Virus record (IMG/VR): IMGVR_UViG_3300025108_000056
Span: 1 to 57,294 of that record
From: a virus
Strand: one strand, 5' to 3'
DNA length: 57,294 nt
The position numbers and the translations under genes are program-made. The notes beneath the pieces were generated by a model. That model saw only the letters and a list, made by a program, of their open reading frames with translations. It made no database searches and was not told the origin of the DNA. Positions 4,263-56,410 of this stretch are shown one piece after another; position 1 is the first letter of the stretch, and the number at the start of each line of letters is the position of its first letter.

Positions 4263-4263
4263 T

Positions 4264-19200: not shown

Positions 19201-20748
19201 GAATACATCGTTATGTCAACAGAAGCCCACAGTCTGCACACAGACAGAGAAGTCGGACAAAGAACTAACATTAGAGGAGCATATAACTTCGGAAGTAGAA
19301 CTCTCAAAGATTTAGATATGACTGCCCTTGATTGGAGTTCTGCTCCTGTCACTGGTGTAGTTAAGCACTCCGATGCACACGCTATGTGGCCACTTGGTGG
19401 TACTTATGTGATGGACTGGAACAAACACGCTGGTAACCTAGATGTCAAAGGGTGGGGTCGTGCTTTCCCAAGAAATGGTATGGCTCTTTGGTTAAAGGCA
19501 GACACATTAGAATTAAATGACGGTGATGCCGTGACTAGTTGGAAAGATTCGGGGCCTCATGGATTTGAGTTTACACAAGCAACTGCTTCGGCTCAACCTT
19601 CTTACATAGCATCATCTAACTTGATTAACGATATGCCTGTAATAGATTGTGATGGTAATGATAAACTTACCCTTACCTTCGATGCAAGGCTCAACACCAA
19701 TGAAGTCACTTTGTTTGTAGTGGCTTGGGCAGATACTGATGATGGTAATCCTAATGGCGTATTGGAAACATTTGCAAATAGCCCTGTAACTCGTGCCGGT
19801 CACTCTCTATGGATTCGCATGGATTCTAGCAACAGATGGAGATGGCAAGGTGGTGCGAACACCACTTACACAGGTGTCTATTCTGCCAATAATAGTGCAA
19901 TTGCCGGATACCCTGAGATAGTTACTGCCCGTACATTCGGTGGAGATGGTGTAGGTGGTACCGCTACTTTCGATTTGTTCTTAAGAGGAATTAGTGTTGG
20001 CTCTACAACAGGTCCATTTTGGGTGGCAGATGAAGACCCTATGGGAATAGGCCATGTTGGTTCATTTGAATTAAACGGTAAGATTGCCGAAGTAATACAG
20101 TATAACAGGAAACTCACTGACCTTGAGCAAAGACAAGTGGAAAGTTATTTGTCTCAAAAATACGCCATTAGTACAGCGTCATTAGGTCAGACTTCTAACC
20201 CGTACCAAGATAATGACCACGACCCTATATCTCAGAACATCAACAACTCTGATAGCAACATACAATTCTTGTACAGACCAGCGTTTGGACTTGACTTCAA
20301 GCACAGTCAGATGTTCAGGTCTTATGTGGCGTTAAAAGGTAGCAGTCCTCAAGAAAACTCAAACTTCTACAGGGCTACTGCTGGCGGTAAGTATGGTATG
20401 TTCACTAGTGATGCACCGGGCGCTCGTACAGGTACTCCGAGTAATCCGCCTTACGCACCTGTTTATACCGTAGACCCAGCGACCAGTACAACTGTACCTG
20501 TCAGTCAAGGGCCGAACATACCCGGTGTCGATGTCACAGGTTATGATAAGTCAGATATTACCAGCCCAGTCGCTAGAATGGTCATGTCAGAAAATACTCT
20601 TGAGCACTTCCGAGCCGACGCAAGTCGTCGTTCTATAGATGATGATGAGGGTGATTACAGTGTTCAGCCAAGACACAGCCAGACGCTACATCCAAAGGGC
20701 AGCAAAGGGGATGCATCTTATAATACCGGAGACCATAGTGGGGAGTGA
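4264..20748 (+). CDS. giant 5494-residue modular tail fibre / adhesin-like protein
   Basis: One uninterrupted frame of 16.5 kb. I prefer ATG 4264 (AGGTG about 6 bases upstream) to an in-frame GTG at 4255 that overlaps the previous stop. Residues 1-230 look like a LamG-type jelly roll (GYGLKFNGISDSVLVP, FTLETWFIPDSGG, LGLWRFEEP). About 873-935 is the beta-module shared with neighbouring tail genes (GKQLGTVTAVTSSSITIG...KDELFLEP). Short modules containing LFPI or LFPV recur near 1332, 1490 and 4340. Residues about 5070-5310 are a second LamG-like domain (GMALWLKADTLELNDGDAVTSW...KIAEVIQYNRKLTDLEQRQVESYLSQKY) very like the one in the first gene. The protein is rich in Ser, Thr, Gly, Asn, Asp and His and has no long coiled coil, which argues against a classical tape measure. 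A host-recognition or adhesion role is inferred. Confidence 0.6.
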   Translation: MSLLIDAGYGLKFNGISDSVLVPTNNTNLHGAQTKERKRLPTSMSSFTLETWFIPDSGGTIFEQDNVMRLTVGSPSSSAPAFFEVRLRNKNNGKDNVFTLSSAKAVNKANGLLAYWDGILFPTNNSTINSANLGSDVDTNDVTAFAEGSRELLNVTVTFDRRILSMHVNGDLLVEQVLEEEHELVPQQSQMFLGGRGGDFRGTLETIHLSASALPSGRQQFAPIKGDNTLGLWRFEEPIDPIAMRVETPALVASTASYSTFTVSTTVANDLIKELTGSTSSSTVLFTNSPYSAGKYSYKVYTATSSNDRELEKVPFNLIINPLGYDKKTGKPTNKAPERVRLRSINPNSGQITVTSIHLDFSANPTTGQRGLLMAHDAGEFVVVIGDCIVDGGNGNVFQPQGSGTQFSQRQGQVIIDESDFENHGIMFSMSMAVDSHEYNQFSASTTNMGTDFLIGHTGRHILNHVKSHPFMGLLPPPESHNVEKKLDAGSDVVNATFMPQFGNIKDIVPVNSVISSFDTHGKIPVNDLVYSSVVSTFIENGMSDIDDTKRGLLAIGGPQFNTEPFLLKSISSTDAKSDIKALIPSNEDRIATLVLPELETYDYAPFVQIHYNAIDRTGEHFDVGATSRLTANISTATLTLQSVKSFGVDGTVIPASRISINGETPFTSYTNQTATITYSAKTIVFSATPNNSAFNAAAVNNAIVKLSDNFPKLLINKTLPDVSTIVTGTTSILDLMRTSANTSPLTLVSPGGVMTFKTPNLFPFDDGQLEGDDSEGLVGEGQLDLSLCPTNYLPSVATDAPQTTPKGIGLAQSELSNRSSVFHRVLVRNHFVKSSDYDELANVKLRKTTNGARQRLGLTFSADYAASTSTAMNVTGGTVNNTIAVDDVIYKANGKQLGTVTAVTSSSITIGAGTSDAVVNKDELFLEPQAAGRGSTNQSTVVHEYFDIIEHKSRNNVTSLVIQPTDRSRFAQLSKMIKDTEMRNHISIEHLMSRARVLSFGDDTDGNTVLRAHGLLSDIASSTVSVKGSASPDSHIVKEIMPGAPVVTMTLGGGGQGAVNTKETWDPAPLSRLAWNTRRDCQAKVNATISIGTKRQISVLPLNNNADDLQSWGTYCFPATGRVYLELSGNQGEQKQFASAEYTSKTGTLFSFSNSTGLVGSGTFVLADGSEADSFNAWVTATGIDETSVLHVDDKFSEESMCNDGTTINDRLFQSLDTVQHDYQLGSQYASTRALVEIPLFEEFFFDNPDKGIFPGPDNSMKLHIDATHTAHSWNPNPVGRRADAISPQDPEIFGPFSYTIQRGTHRSGTKVTRPYDSSNYRVYVEDANIFPIPTAPPTEVANLGGQARYRRAFLPNGEWFTYSARNTSDHYLTVVDSGDDHAFSANFLRDIRVGAHITPAPGYQDMNYNSIADNPSLISAGYERRRSFYYDRSNVTTQGGNADYGMKQYVSAIELRAGPSTNPHLPKIISKRPRAKAVLVVGSPATSIKLDDASLFPIKSPDNDYNFRVAWVDSSGNVKRGFYNNRSGNTLTITSPDTGFTPSAGDEIYVEDLYATSASTWPKVKETFLNRAWAHPYCPGGIRQGDTIWMNMHYTNPHAVEGLFCKSRGTLNEAEVWKGFNGGVGEVDANPRDSIPLENFLIGNSCIETAQNLVQHINKTIELNYLEVVGTSITAPVVAYLDPYQCTDNFVRILLYDVGHDREFIAFQDLHMQVQSSPAAARISEEDANKTGVVKNTVTDSGTQLDVAAGFPSQNKRMNTTTKSDFIEASYAHASDWNESYSGAISEHNVGGLTNIDKDSYSSRTNPAVASANEALIQHQVIDDTSRESSTFFDTPDGTRVIPAFLAMKGIRNSVLDLTSHTEARLQYLDQWTDMDFVRRLTLDLGEVALKDGVTNIESAAREVVRLINQAGARNGKTHARRPNDQFLGDSSKFDLSSPGPKSNAYSTNIDPAATHLHADFAATASTHDPAPFWDPSKAFSSHDRGTHMGYVRAHLGRVVLDSEDNPGFSIVIHSTIPGAAGRNFCTWLDSSKAQSPYRPQFLIGHGGRFRNYWCQPDEMTGENMHPAPMPINRFGRPFAPITTLKEHLPPENPSDPFLNNLNFGPDRTDSAGALVSANTEVVSGRNSNTLLNESFETKSPASTLVDGLRIGTRAKARINFGGLTQAGVPGWAPDVSKWGFDNDGTQNHFLSKYGNPSNVSDAMTVTTDGSNDGYIPKADMKKENIGNNPLYGFRFVDHRGDNHTIRMVYRQFGQSFANDNTYLPSTLDEEVIIHFDDRDVGQGGFTIGRHMVGTGEVCGEKTGGSTLSKLKGNLWNNYPAPIVGVKVATTYSSGTMTVVLDAPYDTSAPAVMQTHPDILGYLGFPESGMFQLSTQSGIQGLNFYYTSRTHNDYSGTHKFFGVIGGSSSHTNGDWFMSPRLNFSSLLTDEVIAAAVEYAINMPDSGLEGLDVTSFDCTNMFAPDGQTLGEWGVSPTAIRIHTRADRKVALSKLFEATRSKDWGLLEGASTDAVVSSKHTGGLSAGEIDAGTRLDIGYIPSTVLHITTKYRGSNANTATPILVDSQNNMVDITTWQRNLRGENFTDVAGDHIIPRVDAPCLEIHNVTSTEVHVASNESWALFGKLACDDTNSWGQPFLIWYSTTDWAEVRSKPGTSSVTHVNIIAKSANFSPNNHDVIFKSYSSDGYSKEIDGVRRAGSKKASPFLYFRGGRDSPDHWVPLYFGGGFSGAVVDINDGTQNDYSEFYTHPYSSGPTGSAGMQNIGEVAGSYALLDTNAMLAMFPGTPYLDQHRGQNNPPFFNQDALLTFDMTKTANSKVTGIDYTDGTNTVNANIPSPIVLRFAHPHARYSPSGDVTDHTTYMVFGPGQAFPHNTAAHEPQGSRIVTLGNGYSAVPIHFNSDATKDTFLPNQLANGDSTEHSGFNRGSAEAHLPMTTFFQKNNETGFNYVMNWQPTKGFPSEDASATKNYNQVNTKAFYYDGSVATTANLPKHYHPFNHVPVAIAGGAANTIGGSNFLQTRKSAAVWHMDGGYHPGGHFLDNCVSKNPLHPIGTRLSTGGDAAQNVSAFRPCGLLAQAYLAFYGENPSNQAVNENIVIVDATRVQNAEELATIISASINTFPGKDPLKAMGGTFMPSMQNAHKQDRYGWVKTTIVSYTAENSGTAASLVVSGSLTTLPEYGWVRVSDGTDAHYAPYVSTSYSAPNLTLTLGKSPDGGSTNLINPHNSNPFSFSGSTTYEVYIWTKAGTHRHNNDAPNASRDHMCQVHFSGFVDAVDRTRPVGAVGWHGERYSYFNSLDLGSNTYAAGLGAWHPFLGFNPYGAAETCLTGSAPVTVTGETATNTFTSDYCVTGLASRHLIVISHESELPLIAKADRNGTNCTGDLLIANKTDSSNGVGTIAWDTTKIHNKDRYVGPATAGPHVEVQIHSSQFVPVVAGDYPAGNALPADNKWHRAFKSGDMVRANACRYPTGDLFWDESLLPSNTLSEYAGTYATECVGITGQDHYLDSAANQGHTGLFGYYNKRSAARNFLPEHVVWKRMDGGSITMPAVNARGLGMIPWVKRKDSSATDYKLVGEKILGNVRFSFETTNAAMFPIIQAQELGHPQLAEQHPLEVRNALLIPNEHLQFDSVQVVDDTGQEHRIEGGSPFGTVIMDFRHISDREIEGLAPALAGAGVNPNLKIRLPNPDEVPGNIVIRSGFDRIQAYQNETIGSGGLQHPAQNITQIRQMFDHEYAGPRLWPTWENNGWEHLSQDSDDISLAQANSRLKFPASNKEGWHDHTDNNPLKSSFEPHDRSLYFHVTRMGATMTHRYDLDELSFTAYDETNNEIDVGSTPKDTTWIDTSEQSGGRYFLRVYDPTTDKGVIASYTGKGTNKFTGVVVSPEFKSFVTGKTGLKVTPSYYVPAGTTRMFAARRLRDHSEYSGASPDMQKINWHAMYNALPTNSTELSGSAAKIPHSAISAPKMTPMPIPRMGHHYVTPSMALMPGHYAHPAYQRLYDLHTACKSSSHSSFDSDLIGTIEASRLGLDSEDVTAKGFTRDPLLWFSAASAAYGPSDIHGGAFTLLTETKLKYEGYGIAASVGTNAGDINAAGGHTLVLEAAATYTMNNHFPDPLEVGSYQIIIQPNVFKQQLQGFHQNHSDAVKAPSEAGAKVTELTGQQVNTVIAIEKNVNTRGAYALILAEAMMADVRGCEVILNEVILDIDPDPGSQFASLPPLALYNPLGVQESTSPSFTRRSLPYRPGMFVSSTPGRTLTIPWWSILHKDGATASGASKFKHLEWYKPDNYYELCRAGYGAVGAQITLAGYPTTFLDIYEPHKRVRSLNPHCLVIYAEVRSSEILVDNADLFPVYPYYGEVLEYTRDGKRYTASYTDVRGTLATGSLGVTAAFDGVTEITTGFWANINTNEEIILKLSRPYDNDVSDALYLDSETSLLTRNLPQLANGSRDTNSLHPADAFLCMWHPNLGRPFTWYSDDSSRAIYTKAGTADTPVDQKPYNHVPEHFETIHYHDFNYVASKGPFALGMKWPAPPHDHDNNSSTVLRHDGTVYTASEMDALTDGSSTLNHQGGTVGSNKYNFFGFWPGGSHGAGAVSRLESYGHSLMGWGSDTFGMDCETYQDSTGVATLSLPNDRNRCFGYRMAVRQLYNRPRWSPYIRGWLEVANSNAMLGYYNGPLIQQDSKTNGWDYVGSVSGQTDEDFNALYVGILERITQVSSLLGQDQLGRQVRYSDGRRMTGPFGCPVRTARNASTVTRFFPNDEEGQNIEELSQAHRHYMVDWWGNTRGEDVRRFPVRGFGLRPSWDPEDAYKDTNVTHRPAANGLFGGDGNDRQSGNANTVNNDGTNMGTVDWFNPASMLRVGDRGDGRGCRWPTVFNESLLMAVSENHDATGLVLSSNTAEPVYGQGLVRPSNETLQAGEIERGISDRVDLDSDDGLLKPSAHVGEAIETINADTRGAEPVSRDDVRLGLDVDTIAELNDGVSREYIVMSTEAHSLHTDREVGQRTNIRGAYNFGSRTLKDLDMTALDWSSAPVTGVVKHSDAHAMWPLGGTYVMDWNKHAGNLDVKGWGRAFPRNGMALWLKADTLELNDGDAVTSWKDSGPHGFEFTQATASAQPSYIASSNLINDMPVIDCDGNDKLTLTFDARLNTNEVTLFVVAWADTDDGNPNGVLETFANSPVTRAGHSLWIRMDSSNRWRWQGGANTTYTGVYSANNSAIAGYPEIVTARTFGGDGVGGTATFDLFLRGISVGSTTGPFWVADEDPMGIGHVGSFELNGKIAEVIQYNRKLTDLEQRQVESYLSQKYAISTASLGQTSNPYQDNDHDPISQNINNSDSNIQFLYRPAFGLDFKHSQMFRSYVALKGSSPQENSNFYRATAGGKYGMFTSDAPGARTGTPSNPPYAPVYTVDPATSTTVPVSQGPNIPGVDVTGYDKSDITSPVARMVMSENTLEHFRADASRRSIDDDEGDYSVQPRHSQTLHPKGSKGDASYNTGDHSGE

Positions 20749-31658: not shown

Positions 31659-31916
31659 TCACTTCCTGCTTTCTATGATTTTGTCTATGGTGCTAATTAG
31701 TTCGCCTGTATCTTGTAAAAGATAGTTGTTCAGAGTGATGTACATAGGTCCCTTCGGCCCTTGTACATTCTCGTCAAACTCGTATAGCGATGTTTGAATA
31801 GCGATACTATAGTCGTTACCTTTACCTAAATGAGAAAAGTTAACTTCTACATTTCTGTCTACAACCATAGTCATCATTTTTTCTATCAAACGGCTTACCA
31901 TCCTTTTATCCATCAT
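31659..31916 (-). CDS. hypothetical protein between Cas4-like nuclease and primase
   Basis: 85 residues, unrecognised. ATG 31916 overlaps the previous stop in an ATGA junction, preceded by GAGGAGGA. Basic, Met-rich N-terminal helix (MMDKRMVSRLIEKMMTMVV), then strands (VEVNFSHLGKGNDYSIAIQTSLYEF) and a C-terminal helix (LISTIDKIIESRK). A small alpha/beta protein without cysteines. Co-translation with replication genes suggests an accessory role, not otherwise supported. Confidence 0.55.
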   Translation of the reverse strand: MMDKRMVSRLIEKMMTMVVDRNVEVNFSHLGKGNDYSIAIQTSLYEFDENVQGPKGPMYITLNNYLLQDTGELISTIDKIIESRK

Positions 31917-32908
31917 TCTTCCTCCTGATAATTATCCAAATATTCTTGTGGATTGTCACTTCCTTCCCATGCCGGGCAGATTTCTTTAAAACTACACCAA
32001 GCACATTTACCCGCACTAGAACTAGTAGGGAAATCACCAGTCAGATAAGCCGTAATCAAACCTACTTTTAGTTTGTCAATTTGCTTAGTATATGTAGTAT
32101 CCATACTCTCGGTAATCCTTTCATAAAATATTTTGTTGATGCTTCTTTGCTCATAGCCGTATCTGTTGAGGGAATCTAGCCCTTCTACTGTACCCGATGG
32201 GTAAACCCAACCCCAGTGCGTCACATCTTGTAAAGGATGGTCTGCCAACTTTAGCAACTTCTTGTAAAAGGCCATTTCTCTTCTCATAGACTTTACTTTG
32301 AAATCTGAGTCTTTCCACTCATCGTTTCTTTTAGTTTGAACCCACTTGCCTGTTTTCAATTCCATGATGGCTACGCCGCCTTCTTCTTCGCTGAAACCAC
32401 GGTCAATGCTGCCCGCATAGTGAATCGGTATAGTGTGTACTTCGCCATTGAATTCAATCTCTTCTTCGATATAAGCGTGTATCTCAGATTCATTGATAAT
32501 AGGTAAATAGTCATCTACTCCTACATGCTTCAATCTCTGTAAGTCCCAGTGTATTCTGGTATCAATCGACGGTTGTTCACCCAATTGATATTCTTTGTCA
32601 GGTAAAATGGATTTAGCCAGTTCAAGTGCTTCTTTCATCTTGTCTCTTTGTACAAGAGTATGTAATTCACCTACTATTGGCATGACATTGTCATAATAAA
32701 ACTCTATAGCGTCGTGTACATTTGTACCCTTTGTCATAGCGTCTGTCGATGGCTCTGGTAAACGATGAATACGCTTGTATTCATACTGTTTAGGGCAGAA
32801 ATCGAAGTCACTGGTGAGACTAGTCTTCGTGATACGAAGCATCTTTTCATGGCCCGGCTCCCACTGATAGGTAGATTTAGCGTAGGCACTCCAGTCTCTA
32901 TCGCTCAT
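31913..32908 (-). CDS. Cas4-like PD-(D/E)XK nuclease with four-cysteine cluster
   Basis: 331 residues from ATG 32908, which follows GAGGAGGAAACGGA and overlaps the previous stop (ATGA). RecB/Cas4 motifs: Cys near 37 (DFCPKQYEYKRI), GTNVHDAIE (His near 66), HYAGSIDRG (Asp near 167), IMELKTGKW (Glu-x-Lys near 181), QxxxY-like helix (REMAFYKKLL) and a C-terminal trio CAWCSFKEICPAW (about 299-311). One N-terminal plus three C-terminal cysteines is the Fe-S arrangement of Cas4 and AddB-type nucleases, which trim 5' or 3' ends. No Cas1, Cas2 or CRISPR array is present, so a replication or recombination role is more likely than adaptation. Confidence 0.8.
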   Translation of the reverse strand: MSDRDWSAYAKSTYQWEPGHEKMLRITKTSLTSDFDFCPKQYEYKRIHRLPEPSTDAMTKGTNVHDAIEFYYDNVMPIVGELHTLVQRDKMKEALELAKSILPDKEYQLGEQPSIDTRIHWDLQRLKHVGVDDYLPIINESEIHAYIEEEIEFNGEVHTIPIHYAGSIDRGFSEEEGGVAIMELKTGKWVQTKRNDEWKDSDFKVKSMRREMAFYKKLLKLADHPLQDVTHWGWVYPSGTVEGLDSLNRYGYEQRSINKIFYERITESMDTTYTKQIDKLKVGLITAYLTGDFPTSSSAGKCAWCSFKEICPAWEGSDNPQEYLDNYQEEE

Positions 32909-33090
32909 TCCGTTTCCTCCTCGATTAATTTCTGTAGGTAGACAGCCAAATCCATCGCTTCCTCTTGGGCGTGGATAAGCCATTCTAGCCTAGACAAAGG
33001 TGCAGTTTCCATAGTAACTCCATACTTACTTTTACCTACTTCTGCTCTTTGCTGTATCTTTTTACATACTTCGTCTTCTATTCTACTCAT
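32905..33090 (-). CDS. small phage-type protein, possibly MazG-like
   Basis: 61 residues from ATG 33090, chosen for GGTGATAAAATG; the longer frame from 33126 lacks a site. The sequence KIQQRAEVGKSKYGV...LSRLEWLIHAQEEAMDLAVYLQKLI matches a short helical family common in tailed phages in which the EExxD and YL pattern resembles half of a MazG-type nucleotide pyrophosphohydrolase. The protein is too short to be a complete MazG domain unless it oligomerises. It lies between PolB and the Cas4-like gene. Function remains inferred. Confidence 0.5.
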   Translation of the reverse strand: MSRIEDEVCKKIQQRAEVGKSKYGVTMETAPLSRLEWLIHAQEEAMDLAVYLQKLIEEETE

Positions 33091-36411: not shown

Positions 36412-37446
36412 TCAGATTACACCGTCTCGTAGTTCAGGTAAACCGTACCACTGTGCGTCTTCACCCTTCTTAGTTACGAAGTAAAGTCGTTCTTGGTTCA
36501 ACAAGTTTGGGTTAGTCTTCTGCTTGAAGAACTCAGCAGTGTATCTAACTTCGCCAGTCAAAGAGCCATCATTGTTTCTCATATACTTGTTTTTACACCA
36601 TAGTATCTGGAACAGGTCTTTGTTACCACTGGCATGCCAAGCAAACTTCCATCCGTCAAATCCTACTTTGCCATCTTTGTCTTCTTTAAGATGAGTCTCC
36701 CAATAGACATCAACACCTAGTCTGTTCAGTTTTTGACACTGAGCAGTTAGTTGCTTGAATCTTGTAGCACGAATATTCCAGTTCCAACCAATCTCGGCAT
36801 TGAGTTTGGAGTGACTGGCTTCGACAGCGTTAGTAGCAGTCATGTCCAAGTCGTAAATCTTCATACAGGTAATACACATCTCATCAAACTGGTCAACGCC
36901 AGTGACGATGAATGATTTGAGCATCGGTCCTTCAAAGTCCGGCTTGTACTGATTCTCTGCGTATTCTACAGCAAACTTAGCAAGTTCCATGACTCGGTTG
37001 TAACTGAGTAAGTAGTTGTAGGCAGTCTTGTCTTCCTGTTGCATAACCCAAGGCGAGAATATACGGAAGGCAGGGTCGTTGTTGTAGTGAGCCTGCTTAC
37101 AAGATAGGCCACCGTTATCGTGGTCAATTACAATACAAAGAGAGTCGCCATGCTTATGCTTATGAGCATCCATAGCCAGACCAGTCTTACCAGTACCTTC
37201 GTGACCAACTACGCCCATGAAAGTAGCACTAGGTTGTATAGCAGGCGCTTTCGCTTGCTCTTTCATTTCCTGTGCAATAGCAGGGAACCTACTGATAAAT
37301 TCAGTAGAGGTCTCAGGAGTTAACTTCTCCTTGATATTCTGCTCTATGTTTTCTTGAACCACAGGCTCAGCGGCTGCTGGTGCAACCGGCTGAGTTGTAG
37401 TTACTGGCTGTGCTTCGTCTCCTAGTAATGCATCCCATCCACTCAT
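36412..37446 (-). CDS. RecA-superfamily ATPase
   Basis: 344 residues; ATG 37446 overlaps the previous stop by 4 bases. The first 70 residues are a Pro/Ala/Glu/Thr-rich linker (PVTTTQPVAPAAAEP). MGVVGHEGTGKTGLAMDA (about 77-94) is the P-loop; SLCIVIDHDNGG and KSFIVTGVDQFDEM fit the core strands and Walker B. VDVYWETHLKEDKDG resembles a sensor strand. Phage ATPases of the RecA/RadB or AAA_24 type that act in recombination have this layout. It probably loads on ssDNA together with the upstream OB-fold candidate. Confidence 0.6.
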   Translation of the reverse strand: MSGWDALLGDEAQPVTTTQPVAPAAAEPVVQENIEQNIKEKLTPETSTEFISRFPAIAQEMKEQAKAPAIQPSATFMGVVGHEGTGKTGLAMDAHKHKHGDSLCIVIDHDNGGLSCKQAHYNNDPAFRIFSPWVMQQEDKTAYNYLLSYNRVMELAKFAVEYAENQYKPDFEGPMLKSFIVTGVDQFDEMCITCMKIYDLDMTATNAVEASHSKLNAEIGWNWNIRATRFKQLTAQCQKLNRLGVDVYWETHLKEDKDGKVGFDGWKFAWHASGNKDLFQILWCKNKYMRNNDGSLTGEVRYTAEFFKQKTNPNLLNQERLYFVTKKGEDAQWYGLPELRDGVI

Positions 37447-39638: not shown

Positions 39639-39665
39639 CCTTTGTTAGTTCTTTATATAGTCAAT
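39639..39665 (-). promoter_or_regulatory. repeated TATA promoter element, copy 1 (replication unit)
   Basis: Minus strand: attgac, then TATATAAAGAACTAACAAAG, then GG. One of seven near-identical copies in the window. The TATA box lies about 31-37 bases before the clamp loader ATG, leaving room for a transcription start about 25 bases downstream and a very short leader with the ribosome-binding site. It starts a unit of about 17 co-oriented genes. Conservation extends beyond the TATA box, so a regulator may also bind here. Confidence 0.7.
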
Positions 39666-39668
39666 ATT

Positions 39669-45016: not shown

Positions 45017-45043
45017 CCTTTGTTAGTTCTTTATATAGTGAAT
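45017..45043 (-). promoter_or_regulatory. repeated TATA promoter element, copy 2 (DUF932 unit)
   Basis: Minus strand: attcac, then TATATAAAGAACTAACAAAG, then GG. TATA at 45031-45037. Unlike the other copies it lies about 90 bases before the first ATG (44944), so the leader is longer, about 60-70 bases, A-rich and without an own gene. Its upstream edge abuts the stop of the previous gene (45050). Confidence 0.65.
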
Positions 45044-45049
45044 CTGCGT

Positions 45050-48171: not shown

Positions 48172-48422
48172 TCTTCTTCGCCTCTGTATCTAATTTTATT
48201 TATGAAGTCAAAGGCATCCAATTGATTTTTTCCTTCACCCTCCTGTAAAAAGGAGATGTAGTTTTTCACTAGTGCTTTTAGGTTTTCATTTTCAGTCGCC
48301 TGTGCCCATCTAAGTATCATTGCAGATTGGTGAAAATCAAAATCATCTTCGTTCAATTCCCAGACAGGAACATGTAATTTCCGTGTGGTTGAATAATATT
48401 CCTTTGGTAGCGAGTTACTCAT
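48168..48422 (-). CDS. hypothetical helical protein
   Basis: 84 residues. ATG 48422 overlaps the previous stop (ATGA). Aromatic N-terminal half (KEYYSTTRKLHVPVWELNEDDFDFHQSAMILRWAQA), then helical (NENLKALVKNYISFLQEGEGKNQLDAFDFINKIRYRGEEE). The GEEE end encodes a GAGG ribosome-binding site. Unrecognised. Confidence 0.55.
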   Translation of the reverse strand: MSNSLPKEYYSTTRKLHVPVWELNEDDFDFHQSAMILRWAQATENENLKALVKNYISFLQEGEGKNQLDAFDFINKIRYRGEEE

Positions 48423-48598
48423 TCTTCTTCACCTCTGTCAAACTGATTTACTTCTACTGGGTCAAGAGTGACTTCAATCTTACCGACTACACTTGCGATG
48501 TTCGGCTGAGGGTCAATCCCTTTCTCAATCAAATAGTTCATTCTCCAAACTTCAATTGCATGCTTTAGTTCATTCATTATTCCATCATTGTATGTCAT
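48419..48598 (-). CDS. 59-residue hypothetical protein, first gene after promoter copy 3
   Basis: ATG 48598 was chosen because AAGTGAG lies just upstream; GTG 48607 would place the start inside that site. Sequence MTYNDGIMNELKHAIEVWRM, then a short hydrophilic segment and VVGKIEVTLDPVEVNQFDRGEEE. Starts the unit that ends with the HARP/SNF2 helicase. No family. Confidence 0.55.
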   Translation of the reverse strand: MTYNDGIMNELKHAIEVWRMNYLIEKGIDPQPNIASVVGKIEVTLDPVEVNQFDRGEEE

Positions 48599-48614
48599 TT
48601 TTCTCACTTCTCTT

Positions 48615-48641
48615 CCTTTATTAGTTCTTTATATACTGAAT
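48615..48641 (-). promoter_or_regulatory. repeated TATA promoter element, copy 3 (helicase unit)
   Basis: Minus strand: attcag, then TATATAAAGAACTAATAAAG, then GG. The only copy with T at the variable position (AATAAAG in place of AACAAAG). It directly follows the stop codon of the upstream gene (48641), and the ATG is at 48598. Confidence 0.7.
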
Positions 48642-48877
48642 CACTCCAGTGGATGGTCTATGTTCATATCTCCTAGTGTCCATCGAAGGGCTTTGACCAC
48701 ACCCTCCAACGCTTTGTAATTCCTCATGTGATACATACGGTCTTTTCTTTTACATCTCTGCATAGCAGTGTAATGTTGATTCTGTTTTTTCTCTGCTCTA
48801 TCAAGCATGTTGTGTATGTCTTCCCATGTTCTGTTGTATGCGAAGTGGTCACTATCTTGATGGTCGCTCATTGTCAT
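48641..48877 (-). CDS. hypothetical protein rich in His and charged residues
   Basis: 78 residues from ATG 48877 (a second ATG is two codons in), after GAGGAATAAAC. The middle is a charged helix (EDIHNMLDRAEKKQNQHYTAMQRCKRKDRMYHMRNYKALEGVVKALRWTL), likely DNA-binding or coiled. It is the last gene of its unit. Unrecognised. Confidence 0.5.
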   Translation of the reverse strand: MTMSDHQDSDHFAYNRTWEDIHNMLDRAEKKQNQHYTAMQRCKRKDRMYHMRNYKALEGVVKALRWTLGDMNIDHPLE

Positions 48878-48879
48878 GT

Positions 48880-49347
48880 TTATTCCTCTTCATCGAATAA
48901 TATCTGTGCGAACCTCGAAGGTTCAAGGGTCTGCCATCCGTCTGATGATTCAATTATAAACTCAAATTTGTCGGGTTTGTATTCGTTTAAATCGACATTC
49001 ACTTTTAGTAATTTGAGCCAAACATCATCATAGTCTAATGAATCTATGATAGTCTTTGAGTATCGAGCGTAGTCGATTATCAATCCAATCCTTCTTGTGT
49101 TTAATGAGTCTAAGTAAAACTGTAAATCTAATGCTTGTTCAGTTTCCTTGTGCTGTTCCTCCATGACATCTAAGAATATGTCAGCCTTGCTTCCATCGAC
49201 TGTTTCTAACCAACCAACTCCATAGTCATCCTTCACGGCTTGCCATTCGTCTCTATCGTATTTATTACGGAGTTCTTGTTCGACGCTGATTCGATTACAT
49301 TTTTCCATCAGCGTAGAGTTATCTCCAAACGGAAAACTTCGCCTCAT
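48880..49347 (-). CDS. hypothetical acidic protein
   Basis: 155 residues, unrecognised. After GAGAGGAATAA. Mixed helices and strands (VEQELRNKYDRDEWQAVKDDYGVGWLET, HKETEQALDLQFYLDSLNTRRIGLIIDYARYSKTII, KFEFIIESSDGWQTLEPSRFAQILFDEEE). The acidic end carries the ribosome-binding site of the next gene. No catalytic motif found. Confidence 0.55.
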   Translation of the reverse strand: MRRSFPFGDNSTLMEKCNRISVEQELRNKYDRDEWQAVKDDYGVGWLETVDGSKADIFLDVMEEQHKETEQALDLQFYLDSLNTRRIGLIIDYARYSKTIIDSLDYDDVWLKLLKVNVDLNEYKPDKFEFIIESSDGWQTLEPSRFAQILFDEEE

Positions 49348-49779
49348 TTATTCCTCTCCTTTCATGTTCTTTACTATGTTAGAGACATCGACTTTGTAAG
49401 TGCCGCTTTCAGTGGCTTCGGTCTCCAGTGGAAGTGTAGGTTTCTCATCTGTTTCTGTGGTTTCTTGAGAAGGTTGGTCGACATCTATCTCAATGTCTTT
49501 GAGTTTCTTACCTGCTAAATCTCCAAACAATCTTGGGTCGTTTGGTATCTCCATCAGCATAGGTGTCTTGGGTTCGATGAGATAGTTAGCACCAGATACG
49601 GTACAGATAACCTCTATCAAATCTATCTTACCGAACTCACTGCTATGAACATGGGTTTCAAACTCATGTCCAAATTGCATAGCGTTCTGTAAGTAATTGT
49701 ATGTCTGTATAGTCTTTTCAAGTTTAATCGCTTGCTCGTTTAATTCTTGTACTTGCTTTTCGTAATCTTCTTTTTTCAT
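49348..49779 (-). CDS. coiled-coil hypothetical protein
   Basis: 143 residues. ATG 49779 overlaps the previous stop (ATGA). Residues 1-35 are a strongly predicted coiled coil (YEKQVQELNEQAIKLEKTIQTYNYLQNAMQ), followed by a compact strand-rich part (IDLIEVICTVSGANYLIEPKTPMLMEI) and an acidic Thr/Pro/Glu-rich linker (SQETTETDEKPTLPLETEATES). Unrecognised. Confidence 0.5.
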   Translation of the reverse strand: MKKEDYEKQVQELNEQAIKLEKTIQTYNYLQNAMQFGHEFETHVHSSEFGKIDLIEVICTVSGANYLIEPKTPMLMEIPNDPRLFGDLAGKKLKDIEIDVDQPSQETTETDEKPTLPLETEATESGTYKVDVSNIVKNMKGEE

Positions 49780-49985
49780 TCTTCATCCCTACCTAGCATA
49801 TCTTCTATAGAGTAATCTTTGATACCTGCTTCTAACAATCTATCATATAGAGTATTTAGAAAGTGAGTCAGGTCTTTTATTCTGTCATTGATTGGTTTCG
49901 CTGTTTGTTTCAAAAAGTAAAGTTCCTCAAAGACTCGCCTCGCTACTATCCTAGTATTGTTAATCTGTAATTTATCATTGTTCAT
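49776..49985 (-). CDS. 69-residue helical protein
   Basis: Start ATG 49985, preceded by AGAGGTGATTAAT; the frame extends to 50039 but that part overlaps a zinc-ribbon gene. Sequence NNDKLQINNTRIVARRVFEELYFLKQTAK, then INDRIKDLTHFLNTLYDRLLEAGIKDYSIEDMLGRDEE, is helical. No family. Confidence 0.55.
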   Translation of the reverse strand: MNNDKLQINNTRIVARRVFEELYFLKQTAKPINDRIKDLTHFLNTLYDRLLEAGIKDYSIEDMLGRDEE

Positions 49986-49986
49986 A

Positions 49987-50109
49987 TTAATCACCTCTGC
50001 TAAATGGGTTCTTTGTGGTAGACCTCCAGCACTCATCACATACCTTGTAGACAGGATGAATGTTGACGCTGGTTCTTCTTTTACATCGCTTGCATTCTAA
50101 GTCTTTCAT
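49987..50109 (-). CDS. 40-residue zinc-ribbon protein
   Basis: ATG 50109 overlaps the previous stop in an ATGA junction. CKRC near residue 6 and CDEC near 24 form a CxxC...CxxC ribbon in MKDLECKRCKRRTSVNIHP and VYKVCDECWRSTTKNPFSRG. The last codons contain the AGAGGTGATTAA site used by the next gene. Function unknown. Confidence 0.6.
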   Translation of the reverse strand: MKDLECKRCKRRTSVNIHPVYKVCDECWRSTTKNPFSRGD

Positions 50110-50231
50110 TCTTCTTCCTCTTCAAGTTCTTCACGCAACCGCTTGACTTCGGCAACTAAATCCCAAAATATTCTTACCTTGTAATCATTAGTCCATTGTT
50201 TCATATTCTCTATTTCTTCTATGTCAATCAT
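50106..50231 (-). CDS. 41-residue protein, remote fifth member of the MIDTDKY family
   Basis: ATG 50231 overlaps the previous stop (ATGA). Sequence MIDIEEIENMKQWTNDYKVR, then IFWDLVAEVKRLREELEEEEE. The AEVKRLRE block and its 20-base coding stretch, on the plus strand near 50131, are identical to those of the tandem family at 52567-53634. It lacks the GHTP part and may be a shortened copy. Function unknown. Confidence 0.55.
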   Translation of the reverse strand: MIDIEEIENMKQWTNDYKVRIFWDLVAEVKRLREELEEEEE

Positions 50232-52477: not shown

Positions 52478-52567
52478 TTATTCCTCCTTGTTTTGTTTCT
52501 TTTTATTTGGGTCTTGGTAATCTTCTATACCGAGAATGTGTGCTATCAATTCATTGAGTGTCTTCAT
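52478..52567 (-). CDS. 29-residue small protein
   Basis: ATG 52567 overlaps the stop of the preceding tandem gene (TGATG). Sequence MKTLNELIAHILGIEDYQDP, then NKKKQNKEE; the last codons, GAGGAATAA, are the ribosome-binding site of the 412-residue gene. Supported by both junctions. Function unknown. Confidence 0.5.
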   Translation of the reverse strand: MKTLNELIAHILGIEDYQDPNKKKQNKEE

Positions 52568-52839
52568 CAATATCCCTCCGCTATCAAATGTTCTTGCCCG
52601 TAGTCTAACATCATCTGTTTCAATTCCTCTTGTGTATTAGGAAACTCATCATAGTCCGGTAAGTCAATTGCACCGAGAATAGAAACTATGTCTTTACGCA
52701 ACCTCTTGACTTCTTCAAGGAGAAGTGGTGCGTCATAGATTAAGTTCTCATCAGCCTTGTTAAATGGCATCTGTCCGAAATTGTATTTCCTTCTCCAATG
52801 CTTAGGTGTATGTCCTTCGTATTTGTCTGTGTCAATCAT
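52567..52839 (-). CDS. MIDTDKY-family small protein, copy 1
   Basis: 90 residues. MIDTDKYEGHTPKHW, then LIYDAPLLLEEVKRLRKD and a variable helical C-terminus ending HLIAEGY. It shares the start, the GHTP segment and the DAPLLLxEVKRLR helix with the next three genes. Such GHTP-x-W plus DAPxLLAEVKRLRE proteins are common in tailed phages and of unknown role. Start overlaps the previous stop (ATGA), with GGTGATTGA upstream. Confidence 0.6.
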   Translation of the reverse strand: MIDTDKYEGHTPKHWRRKYNFGQMPFNKADENLIYDAPLLLEEVKRLRKDIVSILGAIDLPDYDEFPNTQEELKQMMLDYGQEHLIAEGY

Positions 52840-53159
52840 TCAATCACCTCTAATATATATTCCCATTCTTGCTTTTCTAATATGTCATCATGCTGTGCAT
52901 TGATACTAGCACAGTCTTTGATTTTCTTTATCACTTCACGCAACCGCTTGACTTCTGCGAGTAGTAGTGGTGCGTCTGCAATCAAGTTTGCATCAGCATT
53001 GGAAAATTCAATGACCTTATCTCCATCTTCATTAGGTTGAACATAAGCAATGAATCTGTCGTTAGGACATTTACCATTTGACACGAAATTGTTGTTTATT
53101 CTCCAACCAACTTCATTATCACCTTTAGTATGTCCTTTGTATTTGTCTGTGTCAATCAT
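52836..53159 (-). CDS. MIDTDKY-family small protein, copy 2
   Basis: 107 residues, the longest member. MIDTDKYKGHTK, a variable middle rich in strands (VGWRINNNFVSNG, RFIAYVQPNEDGDKVIEFSNADANL), then IADAPLLLAEVKRLREVIKKI and a divergent helical end (QHDDILEKQEWEYILEVIE). ATG 53159 overlaps the previous stop by 4 bases. The variable middle between fixed ends is the noteworthy feature. Confidence 0.6.
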   Translation of the reverse strand: MIDTDKYKGHTKGDNEVGWRINNNFVSNGKCPNDRFIAYVQPNEDGDKVIEFSNADANLIADAPLLLAEVKRLREVIKKIKDCASINAQHDDILEKQEWEYILEVIE

Positions 53160-53431
53160 TCAATCACCTTCTTCAATTCTTTCCAACCTTCTTCTTGCCC
53201 ATGTCTTAACCGAATGTGAAGTGCATGTTCAATACCTTCACGCAACCGCTTGACTTCTGCTAAGAGAAGTGGTGCGTCTACGGCAAGTAGTCGGTCAGCC
53301 ATCGGAACTTGAATCCAATTTTCTGTTTCGTCTAAGCCATCAACAGTCCACACCTTGATGGCCTGAACATCATATCCACCTGTCTTCCAAGGCGCAGGTG
53401 TATGTCCTTTGTATTTGTCTGTGTCAATCAT
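53156..53431 (-). CDS. MIDTDKY-family small protein, copy 3
   Basis: 91 residues. MIDTDKYKGHTPAPWKTGGY, variable middle (VQAIKVWTVDGLDETENWIQVPMADRLL), then VDAPLLLAEVKRLREGIEHAL and a basic end (HIRLRHGQEEGWKELKKVIE). The coding stretch of AEVKRLRE is identical at the DNA level to copies 2 and 4. Start overlaps by 4 bases. Confidence 0.6.
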   Translation of the reverse strand: MIDTDKYKGHTPAPWKTGGYDVQAIKVWTVDGLDETENWIQVPMADRLLAVDAPLLLAEVKRLREGIEHALHIRLRHGQEEGWKELKKVIE

Positions 53432-53634
53432 TCAATCACCTCTTTAGGATTGAACCCCTCAAAATACAAGAAGGATTCATACTTCTTATTCTCTTCACGC
53501 AACCGCTTGACTTCGGCTAGAAGTTTTGGTGCGTCTGCTATGAGTTGTTTGTCAATGCTACCAACTGGGCAGTATTCACTCAACTTATCCCACGGTGCAG
53601 GTGTATGTCCTTCGTATTTGTCTGTGTCAATCAT
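53428..53634 (-). CDS. MIDTDKY-family small protein, copy 4
   Basis: 68 residues, the shortest of the four. MIDTDKYEGHTPAPWDKLSE, then CPVGSIDKQLIADAPKLLAE, VKRLREENKKYESFLYFEGF and NPKEVIE. First gene of the tandem set in transcription order. Start overlaps the upstream gene (ATGA). Function unknown. Confidence 0.6.
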   Translation of the reverse strand: MIDTDKYEGHTPAPWDKLSEYCPVGSIDKQLIADAPKLLAEVKRLREENKKYESFLYFEGFNPKEVIE

Positions 53635-53870
53635 TCTTCATCCCTCGGATTGATTACCATAATTGGTTTGTTTATATTATAAGCGTCTATTGATGCTTTA
53701 CAGTCATGCGCTTTGCCAGTGACGAGGTTGAATCTACCAAGCATAAACAACAGCCCGTTAGTAGTATATCCTTCTTCGATATAACAGATTATCTTTTTAC
53801 GCATGGTTTCTTCTGCTTCGTTCTTGATTGTGTTAGCATAATCGTCTAGTTCTTGTAATGTTATTTCCAT
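53631..53870 (-). CDS. 79-residue hypothetical protein, first gene after promoter copy 5
   Basis: ATG 53870 is preferred over GTG 53879, because the GTG lies in the AAGTGAG ribosome-binding site. Helical N-terminus (ITLQELDDYANTIKNEAEETMRKKIICYIEEGY), then TTNGLLFMLGRFNLVTGKAHDC and KPIMVINPRDEE. It precedes the tandem MIDTDKY genes in one unit. Unrecognised. Confidence 0.55.
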   Translation of the reverse strand: MEITLQELDDYANTIKNEAEETMRKKIICYIEEGYTTNGLLFMLGRFNLVTGKAHDCKASIDAYNINKPIMVINPRDEE

Positions 53871-53886: not shown

Positions 53887-53913
53887 CCTTTGTTAGTTCT
53901 TTATATAGTCAAT
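53887..53913 (-). promoter_or_regulatory. repeated TATA promoter element, copy 5
   Basis: Minus strand: attgac, then TATATAAAGAACTAACAAAG, then GG. The stop codon TGA of the upstream gene (53909) lies inside the element. ATG 53870 follows, about 30 bases past the TATA box. It drives the unit holding the tandem family and the 412-residue gene. Confidence 0.7.
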
Positions 53914-54202
53914 CTTGGCTGTAGAGGTCAAAATGCTTCTCAATGAATTGAAAAGCCTCCATGATTTTATCCTCAGCATATTGTATTGTTTTGTTTAAGG
54001 CTTTTTCATTGTCGTATCTCAAGTTATCTTCGCCTCCGAACTCGACATACTTCTGATAGAAATTACATTGTTCGTGTAGTGGTGTGCTGTTCCAAGGTTC
54101 AGAAATCCAATGCCAGCATTTTTCACTGAACAATTCCATACCTTCCTCACCCAAGAAAATTGCACTTAACATCCATCCTTTATCTTCATCTGTCAATTTC
54201 AT
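53909..54202 (-). CDS. hypothetical acidic protein
   Basis: 97 residues after GAGGAATAAAT. Sequence includes LTDEDKGWMLSAIFLGEEGMELFSEKCWHWISEPWNSTPLHEQCNFYQKYVEFGG and a helical end (ALNKTIQYAEDKIMEAFQFIEKHFD). The stop lies within promoter copy 5. Unrecognised. Confidence 0.55.
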   Translation of the reverse strand: MKLTDEDKGWMLSAIFLGEEGMELFSEKCWHWISEPWNSTPLHEQCNFYQKYVEFGGEDNLRYDNEKALNKTIQYAEDKIMEAFQFIEKHFDLYSQD

Positions 54203-54450: not shown

Positions 54451-54475
54451 CTTTGTTAGTTCTTTATATAGTCAA
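54451..54475 (-). promoter_or_regulatory. repeated TATA promoter element, copy 6
   Basis: Minus strand: attgac, then TATATAAAGAACTAACAAAG. Starts the short unit of two genes (54432, 54202). The 3' end of an 18-codon frame overlaps this element, so its DYIKN codons are also the promoter. Confidence 0.65.
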
Positions 54476-54512
54476 TCGCTTCTTTCTCGTATTGTGTTAT
54501 CTCTTCATTCAT
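54456..54512 (-). CDS. 18-residue micro-ORF overlapping promoter copy 6 (tentative)
   Basis: ATG 54512 overlaps the preceding stop in an ATGA junction, after AGGTGAACTA. Sequence MNEEITQYEKEAIDYIKN; the last codons (GAC TAT ATA AAG AAC TAA) coincide with the promoter element. It has a good start signal but may be a chance frame. Function unknown. Confidence 0.35.
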   Translation of the reverse strand: MNEEITQYEKEAIDYIKN

Positions 54513-54983: not shown

Positions 54984-55934
54984 TTATTCATCTCCTTTTT
55001 TGATTGATTCAATCATGTAGTCAGCCGCTTTTTGGGCTTCGTGGAATGCTAGACCTAGAGCCTCATCTTTGTCTTCACAGGACTTCAACCATGACTGTAA
55101 GTAAGCCGCATTGTTAGCGTTCTCTTCTTGCACTGAATCCGGTACGAATTCACCACCGAGCCGCATGACTACAAGCATGGATGATAGTTCTGCTATCAGT
55201 TCTTCAAAGGCGTATGCTTTGGTGCCGAAACCGTTGCCTAGTGGCCGCTTCAATCTACTTGAGTGACCTGTCGAATGACCTGCTTCGTGGAATGCTGTCA
55301 TGACCTCACCGATTGGAGTGATGAAAGAGTCATGGGTAGGTAGTTGGATAAGGTCAGCACTGCTTCGATAGAAAGCCCTGTTGCCGCCAGTCTTGAAGGT
55401 GATACCTTCGTTCTTGATGTAGTCGTTAAAGTGCTTCATCATATCATGAGTCGGCTTGACTTCTGCTGTCGGGTCAGGCTTTGGTGCTTCGTAGTCCTCG
55501 CACTGCTCAATGTTGAATACCTCATACCACTTTCTAATCCATCGGTATTTGATTTCGATAGTGCCGTCGTCTTGTTCTTCTTCGTATGGCTTTCGCTCAG
55601 CATACTTGACGATGCAACCGCTACCATTCTTGAGTCCCTTGATAGAAAGTCCTGCGTTGATTAGTTGCTTTCTTGTAGCGAATCTTAGGTCAGTCCAACC
55701 TCTAAACATTCCTTCAATCATAAGCCTCATGGTATTGCCACCTCGATACTCTTTCTTACTTGCTAGGTTCATCGGTATGCCGTCAAATCCAGTGCCGTTA
55801 GGCTTCCATGGCTTTTGCCACGGAAGGTGGTTTGTTTGAATTGCCTCAGCAAATGTGTCGAACCATGCTTGCTCGCATTTCTCATTCCATTCTTTTGATT
55901 TCTTTGGGTTGTATTTTCTCTTGCTCTTTGCCAT
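54984..55934 (-). CDS. ArdC-like antirestriction protein with zincin metallopeptidase domain
   Basis: 316 residues from ATG 55934; ATG 55943 is part of GGAGATGAAAATT. The N-terminal half (about 15-110) is like ArdC: EAIQTNHLPWQKPWKP, GIPMNLASKKEYRGGNTMRLM, then a ssDNA-binding region. The C-terminal half has YRSSADLIQLP, FHEAGHSTGHSSRL (HEAGH near 214-218, zinc-binding) and YAFEELIAELSSML, the glutamate partner. ArdC proteins protect incoming DNA from restriction; the metalloprotease part may act on a target protein. It likely works early in infection, and is the first gene after promoter copy 7. Confidence 0.8.
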   Translation of the reverse strand: MAKSKRKYNPKKSKEWNEKCEQAWFDTFAEAIQTNHLPWQKPWKPNGTGFDGIPMNLASKKEYRGGNTMRLMIEGMFRGWTDLRFATRKQLINAGLSIKGLKNGSGCIVKYAERKPYEEEQDDGTIEIKYRWIRKWYEVFNIEQCEDYEAPKPDPTAEVKPTHDMMKHFNDYIKNEGITFKTGGNRAFYRSSADLIQLPTHDSFITPIGEVMTAFHEAGHSTGHSSRLKRPLGNGFGTKAYAFEELIAELSSMLVVMRLGGEFVPDSVQEENANNAAYLQSWLKSCEDKDEALGLAFHEAQKAADYMIESIKKGDE

Positions 55935-55951
55935 AATTTTCATCTCCTTTT

Positions 55952-55976
55952 CTTTGTTAGTTCTTTATATAGTCAA
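55952..55976 (-). promoter_or_regulatory. repeated TATA promoter element, copy 7 (ArdC unit)
   Basis: Minus strand: aattgac, then TATATAAAGAACTAACAAAG. TATA about 30 bases before the ArdC ATG (55934), AGGAGATG in between. The stop of the upstream gene (55973) touches the element. Confidence 0.7.
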
Positions 55977-56410
55977 TTTTCTTTTAGCCCTTCACTGTAC
56001 TGATTGTTCAACCATGCGTTCTCGGCTGATGTCGTGAATCTGTAGCCGTTTTTCATAGCGTGACAGCATTCGTAACAGAAGTCCTCGTTTGCTTCTTTTT
56101 CACCTTTACACTTTCCATTATAGTGCCAGTTGAAGTGTTTATCTTTTCTTCGTGGGTTCCCATCATCATCAAATGTAACTTCGCTGAGTGGTATTTCCGA
56201 CCATGCTCTACCGTTGTTAGGGCAATCGGTATATTCGGTAATTGAAGTGACTTTAGGTTTGTAGTCGTGAAGGCCATAAGCGTCGTTGTAATGAGCCTCG
56301 TGGTTTTCTACCATTCTCAATGCTTCTGCTTTCGATGTCGCTTCGACTGCAAAGCAGTACGCTGTTTTTTCAATTCTTTCAATGTTATAAACTCTCTTTG
56401 TTATTTTCAT
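55973..56410 (-). CDS. hypothetical protein with C-terminal cysteine cluster
   Basis: 145 residues from ATG 56410, after GAGGTGAATAAA; GTG 56419 is in that site. Sequence begins as a basic strand (KITKRVYNIERIEKTAYCFAVEATSKAEALRMVENHEAHY), has a Cys/Pro/Trp-containing middle, and ends with CKGEKEANEDFCYECCHAMKNGY, a probable zinc-binding segment. The start resembles repeated beta-strand domains with the pattern Y-x-V-E-A-x-S-x-x-E-A found in phage proteins. Function unknown. Confidence 0.6.
   Translation of the reverse strand: MKITKRVYNIERIEKTAYCFAVEATSKAEALRMVENHEAHYNDAYGLHDYKPKVTSITEYTDCPNNGRAWSEIPLSEVTFDDDGNPRRKDKHFNWHYNGKCKGEKEANEDFCYECCHAMKNGYRFTTSAENAWLNNQYSEGLKEN

Follow-up and report, generated by a model that had tools for sequence, protein, structure and literature searches.

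Small tandem genes of a magrovirus-like archaeal virus contig appear to be assembled from half-gene cassettes exchanged at two short conserved DNA seams

The window analysed in this study, i.e. the complete 57,294-nt stretch of the IMG/VR virus record IMGVR_UViG_3300025108_000056, contains a tandem array of small genes, each of which has a half that matches another virus with a different partner half. It is probable that these halves are cassettes exchanged by homologous recombination at short conserved DNA sequences, here referred to as seams, although the mechanism is deduced from sequence data. Both seam stretches recur in about 150 related IMG/VR loci, and everything located between them is exchanged. 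Each gene would consist of a start seam, a variable front half, a helix seam and a variable back half, which is followed by the start seam of the next gene, and the array would be what one virus has drawn from a large stock of small two-part genes, common to a group of uncultured, magrovirus-like archaeal viruses of the ocean. Since the halves are swappable at two seams, nearly every virus carries a new combination.

The earlier note on this DNA, made from the sequence alone, reported four tandem MIDTDKY genes at 52567-53634, and our analysis confirmed them: four ORFs are placed head to tail on the minus strand, each joined to the next by an ATGA stop/start overlap (Table 1). The copies have in common the MIDTDKY start, encoded by an identical 21 nt in all four (4 matches vs. 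0.02 expected), and a DAPxLLxEVKRLR helix. A 23-nt helix word, GCAGAAGTCAAGCGGTTGCGTGA, coding for (A/E)EVKRLR, is also present in 4/4 copies with 0-3 mismatches (0 expected). The ends of the genes had been described as fixed, with identical DNA in the helix; this applies to the 21 nt of the start, but the helix departs from DAPLLLAEVKRLRE in copy 1 (DAPLLLEEVKRLRK) and copy 4 (DAPKLLAEVKRLRE). The middles differ in length and sequence, as had been noticed, but the tails do so equally, the part following the helix being as variable as the middle, and copy 2 lacks the P of the GHTP motif that follows MIDTDKY. Nor do the four copies form the complete set, as a divergent fifth member (with the helix VAEVKRLRE) had been overlooked; it contains the helix word at 50131-50153 with 1 mismatch. 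An imperfect inverted repeat seen by eye in the helix seam (ACTTC...GAAGT) was rejected, since the leucine codons of the window copies vary without matching changes.

Table 1. Features of the array, its surroundings and candidate recombination genes in the window
Feature	Position	Strand	Remarks
Copy 4 (first gene of the operon), 68 aa	53428..53634	-	Front half matches L075, whose back half differs
Copy 3, 91 aa	53156..53431	-	Front half like L039 (72%), back half like L036 (82%); AF2 model
Copy 2, 107 aa	52836..53159	-	Front half like L006 (65%), back half different; AF2 model
Copy 1, 90 aa	52567..52839	-	Back half like near relative L061 (81%), same slot, other front half
Start seam, copy 4	53608..53646	-	Ribosome-binding region, ATGATTGACACAGACAAATACGAAGG, upstream stop overlapping ATGA
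Start seam, copy 3	53405..53443	-	
Start seam, copy 2	53133..53171	-	
Start seam, copy 1	52813..52851	-	
Helix seam, copy 4	53497..53535	-	
Helix seam, copy 3	53240..53278	-	
Helix seam, copy 2	52938..52976	-	
Helix seam, copy 1	52696..52734	-	Most diverged of the four
Fifth family member, divergent, outside the array	50106..50231	-	MIDIEEIENM...VAEVKRLREELEEEEE
Gene immediately upstream of the array	53631..53870	-	Stop overlaps the copy 4 start
29-aa MKTLNELIAHILGIE gene	52478..52567	-	Downstream edge of the slot in relatives
TATA-box-like promoter repeat (putative)	53888..53914	-	One of six in the window
Weakly Sak4-like ATPase, candidate annealing recombinase	36412..37446	-	phrog_124, E 6.6e-6; homologue in 25/25 related records
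PD-(D/E)XK nuclease, phage exonuclease-like, candidate recombination exonuclease	31913..32983	-	

A 27-nt TATA-box-like repeat (GATTGACTATATAAAGAACTAACAAAG; 0-3 mismatches) occurs on the minus strand at 39640-39666, 45018-45044, 48616-48642, 53888-53914, 54451-54477 and 55952-55978. It is probably a virus-specific promoter and, given this presumed function, the array is probably part of an operon driven from the repeat nearest to its upstream gene (Table 1).

HMM searches of the window identified a family B DNA polymerase (PF00136; PolB) and an archaeal-type chaperonin (Cpn60_TCP1), accompanied by an ERCC4 nuclease, PD-(D/E)XK nucleases and a SNF2 helicase, while clamp- and clamp-loader (RFC)-like ORFs were recognised by reading only. 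The combination characteristic of the Magrovirales, the viruses of Marine Group II archaea (family B polymerase, clamp, clamp loader and chaperonin), is therefore present, and this replisome and chaperonin gene set fits the magroviruses as described for the Aoguangviridae (PMC10768690). We infer that the window is a magrovirus-like archaeal virus contig, with a putative place in a named family and with Poseidoniales as the presumptive host. No named magroviruses were found in the phage collection, in which the nearest PolB sequences are those of haloviruses (~24% identity). The window also contains a single ORF of 5497 aa (4255-20748, plus strand), which probably encodes a very large structural protein. 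In seven of the records (G005, G007, G014, G015, G027, G029 and G032), one or two in-frame stops were observed within or adjoining the PolB match; these could reflect split polymerase genes or an upstream extension of the match.

All loci of the family are contigs from metagenome assemblies. A degenerate DNA pattern for MIDTDKY matched at least 119 stretches in IMG/VR. The joints formed by the start seams number from 1 to 8 per record and are always located on one strand (34 records; 0 for the reversed control pattern). In 25/25 records with a polymerase match they lie 9 to 22 kb upstream of PolB, in the same orientation. Among 192 unique complete MIDTDKY proteins, 81 contain the GHTxxxW, DAPLLL and helix elements, and 34 contain none of them, as judged by pattern. 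Outside viruses, a single match was obtained in 84,980 genomes, namely a contig (L158; accession no. NZMJ01000078.1) of a MAG labelled Maricaulis, which carries six joints together with family genes and is probably a misplaced virus contig. Since this was the sole match in the genome collection, host genomes yielded no further members.

In order to compare the two parts of the genes, 196 unique family proteins were split at the helix and the shared seam residues were removed; full-length duplicates were collapsed before pairs were counted, and the control consisted of ORFs in these loci that had a comparable length and were divided mid-way. Where the front halves were at least 70% identical, the back half was shared in 4/66 pairs, compared with 310/355 in the control, and at 90% identity or more the figures were 4/28 and 99/104, respectively (Fisher p 1e-39 and 1e-17, values that are only nominal because the pairs are not independent). 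As an internal control, pieces of the halves were followed at a threshold of 80%, and co-inheritance was found in 37/44 cases within the front body and in 22/23 within the back body, but in only 2/62 and 2/23 across the helix. In the uncollapsed set, comparison between different metagenomes at a front-half identity of 90% or more gave 18 pairs with the same back half and 16 with different ones. Altogether, 125 front and 136 back types were distinguished in 187 proteins, where they are joined in 183 different combinations, and the estimated pool (Chao1) comprises 285 front and 375 back types. Each window copy has one half matching that of another virus, in which the partner half differs. Sequence comparison thus indicates that the front and back halves recombine almost freely.

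The pooled dN/dS values of matched halves from different viruses are 0.34 (front) and 0.23 (back), which points to functional proteins under purifying selection. The middles of the window copies cannot be aligned with one another, and neutral evolution does not describe the matched halves. The proposal of the earlier note that the array may be a cassette for rapid variation is well supported as far as the variation itself is concerned, and may be extended to two exchangeable halves and two DNA-conserved seams across a whole virus group.

The position of the breaks was apparent from profiles of DNA identity. Pairs sharing the front half retain ~0.85 identity to ~20 nt past the helix leucine and then fall to ~0.30, whereas pairs sharing the back half rise from ~0.27 to 0.84 at 15 nt before that point. 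In pairs with neither half in common, identity stays near background save for the start seam, where the first 24 nt reach 0.9-1.0, and the helix seam, with about 0.7-0.86 over ~36 nt. Judging from these alignments, the breaks fall inside seams of ~40 nt. Homology breakpoints at a conserved linker, as expected in linker shuffling, are thus seen in both the identity profiles and the co-inheritance data.

The main technical rival to this interpretation is that the mosaics are artefacts, the assembler having joined unrelated halves at short repeats shared by many viruses. Such chimeras would be in keeping with the metagenomic origin of all the loci and with seams that are repeated words of about 24-40 nt. 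However, 13 exact front-back combinations recur in at least two metagenome data sets (some of which may be re-assemblies of one sample), in some cases as runs of neighbouring genes, and copy 1 of the window was found again in a second contig (L144) that is 99.9% identical. Moreover, the shared halves are usually diverged, as their dN/dS values illustrate, which is unexpected for chimeras arising within a sample, and it is implausible that 183 combinations among 187 proteins are all artefactual. We therefore regard assembly chimeras as a very unlikely source of the mosaics.

The number of genes varies as well. When relatives were compared for copy number, as the earlier note had proposed, the slot preceding the MKTLNEL gene was found to hold four copies in the window, one in L061 (a near relative; PolB 95%), three in L075 and none in L018. 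Small genes that are 85-96% identical are arranged in a different order in the window (48413-50115) and in L061 (9041-10547), which indicates that whole small genes are also shuffled.

Both seams are conserved as DNA and not only as protein. Over 192 joints, the start seam uses ATT for Ile and ACA for Thr in 190 cases each (0.34 and 0.33, respectively, in the genes of the window), and in the helix seam the frequencies of CGG for Arg and GTC for Val are 0.75 and 0.95, against backgrounds of 0.02 and 0.23. The same residue is encoded by the same codon at 0.96 of positions in the start seam and 0.75 in the helix seam, compared with 0.39-0.52 in PolB, and the codon agreement of the seams remains flat from PolB identities of >70% to those of <50%. 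Seam identity within loci (0.79) is nearly equal to that between loci (0.77), which places the seams in a common pool rather than in any single genome.

These data also bear on ordinary tandem duplication, in which the copies would have arisen and then diverged within each virus lineage, with the ends kept only because the protein needs them. Tandem copies with stop/start overlaps would be its natural product, and the conserved end residues fit a structural need. Nevertheless, this origin is highly improbable: the halves match different viruses and not each other, the seams are conserved at the codon level (including the rare CGG), their identity within a locus hardly exceeds that between loci, and MIDTDKY also heads the 34 small proteins without domain or helix by pattern.

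The start seam has additional properties that may be related to translation. The stop codon of the upstream gene lies inside it in 164/192 joints (ATGA in 139 and ATTGA in 25), directly preceded by a purine-rich, ribosome-binding-like stretch, and ATGATTGA holds a stop in both other frames. Since the start seam usually carries the preceding stop, any half that runs into it is terminated in two of the three frames, and the next gene then starts anew. This role as a stop/start adapter explains the uniform C-termini, which are E or D in 158 of 192 cases (133 and 25, respectively). All three features, i.e. the ribosome-binding-like composition, the stop within the seam and the acidic C-termini, agree with the view that the start seam is chiefly a cassette for initiating translation (ribosome-binding sequence, stop/start overlap and favourable first codons), retained for the sake of expression, and that exchange is a by-product. 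We consider this view unlikely, as it leaves unexplained both the DNA conservation and breakpoints of the internal helix seam and the retention of MIDTDKY, as protein and as DNA, on unrelated bodies. Part of the conservation seen in the start seam could be owed to translation. The seams may be maintained for the sake of recombination, or else by the needs of translation and protein function, in which case recombination would merely follow from them.

The 25 records were also inspected for genes that could promote the exchange. No match to a reverse transcriptase (RVT_1) was detected in them (the control matched in 3 genomes), nor to a tyrosine integrase (Phage_integrase, PF00589) or serine recombinase (Resolvase, PF00239), although some of the records may be fragments. 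A diversity-generating retroelement and an integron-like or other site-specific cassette system were rejected on these grounds. The presence of variable segments between fixed flanks, with seams that are conserved DNA words, might suggest a dedicated diversity machine (a retroelement, or a site-specific recombinase acting on the seams) as the producer of the variants. Besides the lack of these matches, however, whole segments of unlike length are exchanged in place of point changes and the halves are under purifying selection, so that we judge such a machine very improbable.

The window does encode a Sak4-like ATPase and a phage exonuclease-like nuclease (Table 1). The Sak4 assignment is weak; at a threshold of 0.001 the phrog_124 profile matched only 8/25 records, and the model also matches in ordinary genomes. 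The Sak4 protein of phage HK620 anneals single strands, even those diverged by up to 20% (PMC5928155). With a Sak4-like protein and an exonuclease present and no reverse transcriptase, integrase or resolvase detected, homologous recombination at the seams would be the simplest explanation. In the proposed scheme, co-infection would allow recombination at the short seams to swap half genes and whole genes and to alter copy number; the conserved Sak4-like protein and the exonuclease perhaps carry out this reaction, and the requirement for matching seams would hold the seam DNA uniform.

The full-form members of the family match phrog_1273, a phage family without an assigned role (51/58 members; best E 7.4e-11). 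In the window, copy 2 matched this profile with E 8.5e-5, and copies 1, 3 and 4 alone did not reach 0.01. For the full form, the match to a phage family without known role agrees with the earlier note, but the MIDTDKY/AEVKRLRE form had no DNA match in 50,697 phage records; a protein search of the phage collection gave six weak matches. No Pfam family is common to the 58 full-form members, and the window copies had no match in Pfam or NCBIfam. An identity as Ead/Ea22-like proteins was discarded, since the 58 members contain no such Pfam match and the literature searched offered little. Structure prediction, another proposal of the earlier note, yielded AlphaFold models of copies 2 and 3 (mean pLDDT 72 and 76). 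In both, the N-terminus forms a short helix, the front part contains beta structure and is modelled with modest confidence, and there are two further helices, one long and one terminal; the copy 2 model had no significant fold match in viral or PDB libraries, and its sequence had none in PDB. In its full form, the product would combine a small domain with beta structure at the front and a helical part at the back.

Several traits, namely small size, variety, a copy number that changes and a conserved location upstream of the genes for replication, suggest that the products are accessory proteins made early and directed at a varied host target, their role perhaps being host interaction or counter-defence. 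The variety of products would let a virus population track such a target, e.g. defence proteins. An ArdC-like anti-restriction gene occurs in 4/27 records, always within ~5 kb of the joints. In the window it is located at 54984-55943 (minus strand), a short distance upstream of the array, and encodes ArdC N-terminal and zincin metallopeptidase domains. This neighbour is a suggestive hint, and only that, of an anti-defence role.

A more far-reaching proposal is that of a dedicated combinatorial diversification system. The internal coding seam and the stop/start adapter seam would persist because recombination itself is selected for, or would be recognition sites of a viral nuclease or annealing protein, and would reassort shared halves into new accessory proteins directed against host defences. 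We hold this proposal to be rather doubtful; if true, combinatorial gene assembly would have a viral counterpart that is aimed at the defences of the host. The reassortment of half genes offers a simple and testable example of how evolution may proceed through the modular assembly of proteins. It also leads to a clear prediction for viral annealing recombinases and their role, and supplies many candidate proteins for a possible action on archaeal hosts. The magrovirus literature searched, in which subscription journals are thinly covered, contains no mention of half-gene exchange.

Comparison with known systems places the array close to several of them. In the domain movement (DOMO) of HsdS proteins, recombination takes place at conserved repeats within genes (Furuta et al. 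2011, PMC3077401). As in that case, variable domains between conserved repeats appear to be exchanged, with changes in copy number, by recombination at the repeats. In contrast to HsdS genes, which are bacterial restriction specificity genes with two target-recognition domains, those described here are tiny viral genes of an unrelated family without a Pfam match; their seams are common to a whole virus group, with hundreds of front and back types estimated. Methylase specificity domains of the HsdS type were not matched by the window copies in Pfam or NCBIfam, nor by the 58 full-form members in Pfam.

Modules are also shuffled at linkers or repeats in Campylobacter group II phages (PMC4546147, where lambdoid linkers are cited). 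Here, too, short conserved sequences would supply the homology for module swaps and for changes in unit number. The early-promoter cassettes of T4 are a further example of phage module shuffling at repeats. Unlike phage linkers, which lie between genes or large modules, one of the present seams is inside the reading frame, so that half genes are exchanged, and the other joins a ribosome-binding region, a stop and a start. Gene mosaics of viruses are usually put down to random or occasional linker recombination, whereas here the reassortment of half genes at two fixed DNA words is near-complete. The phrog_1273 profile covers the front domain and the first helix, to which the present genes add the free exchange of back halves as well as the MIDTDKY seam and the DNA seam of AEVKRLRE. 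The fixed flanks and variable segments recall diversity-generating retroelements acting on viral proteins, from which the present genes differ in the absence of a detected reverse transcriptase and in the replacement of whole segments of unlike length in place of point changes. By analogy, the array would work like HsdS domain movement and phage linker shuffling, and yet be a member of neither, because it has an internal seam and a stop/start adapter seam, both common as DNA to a whole virus group.
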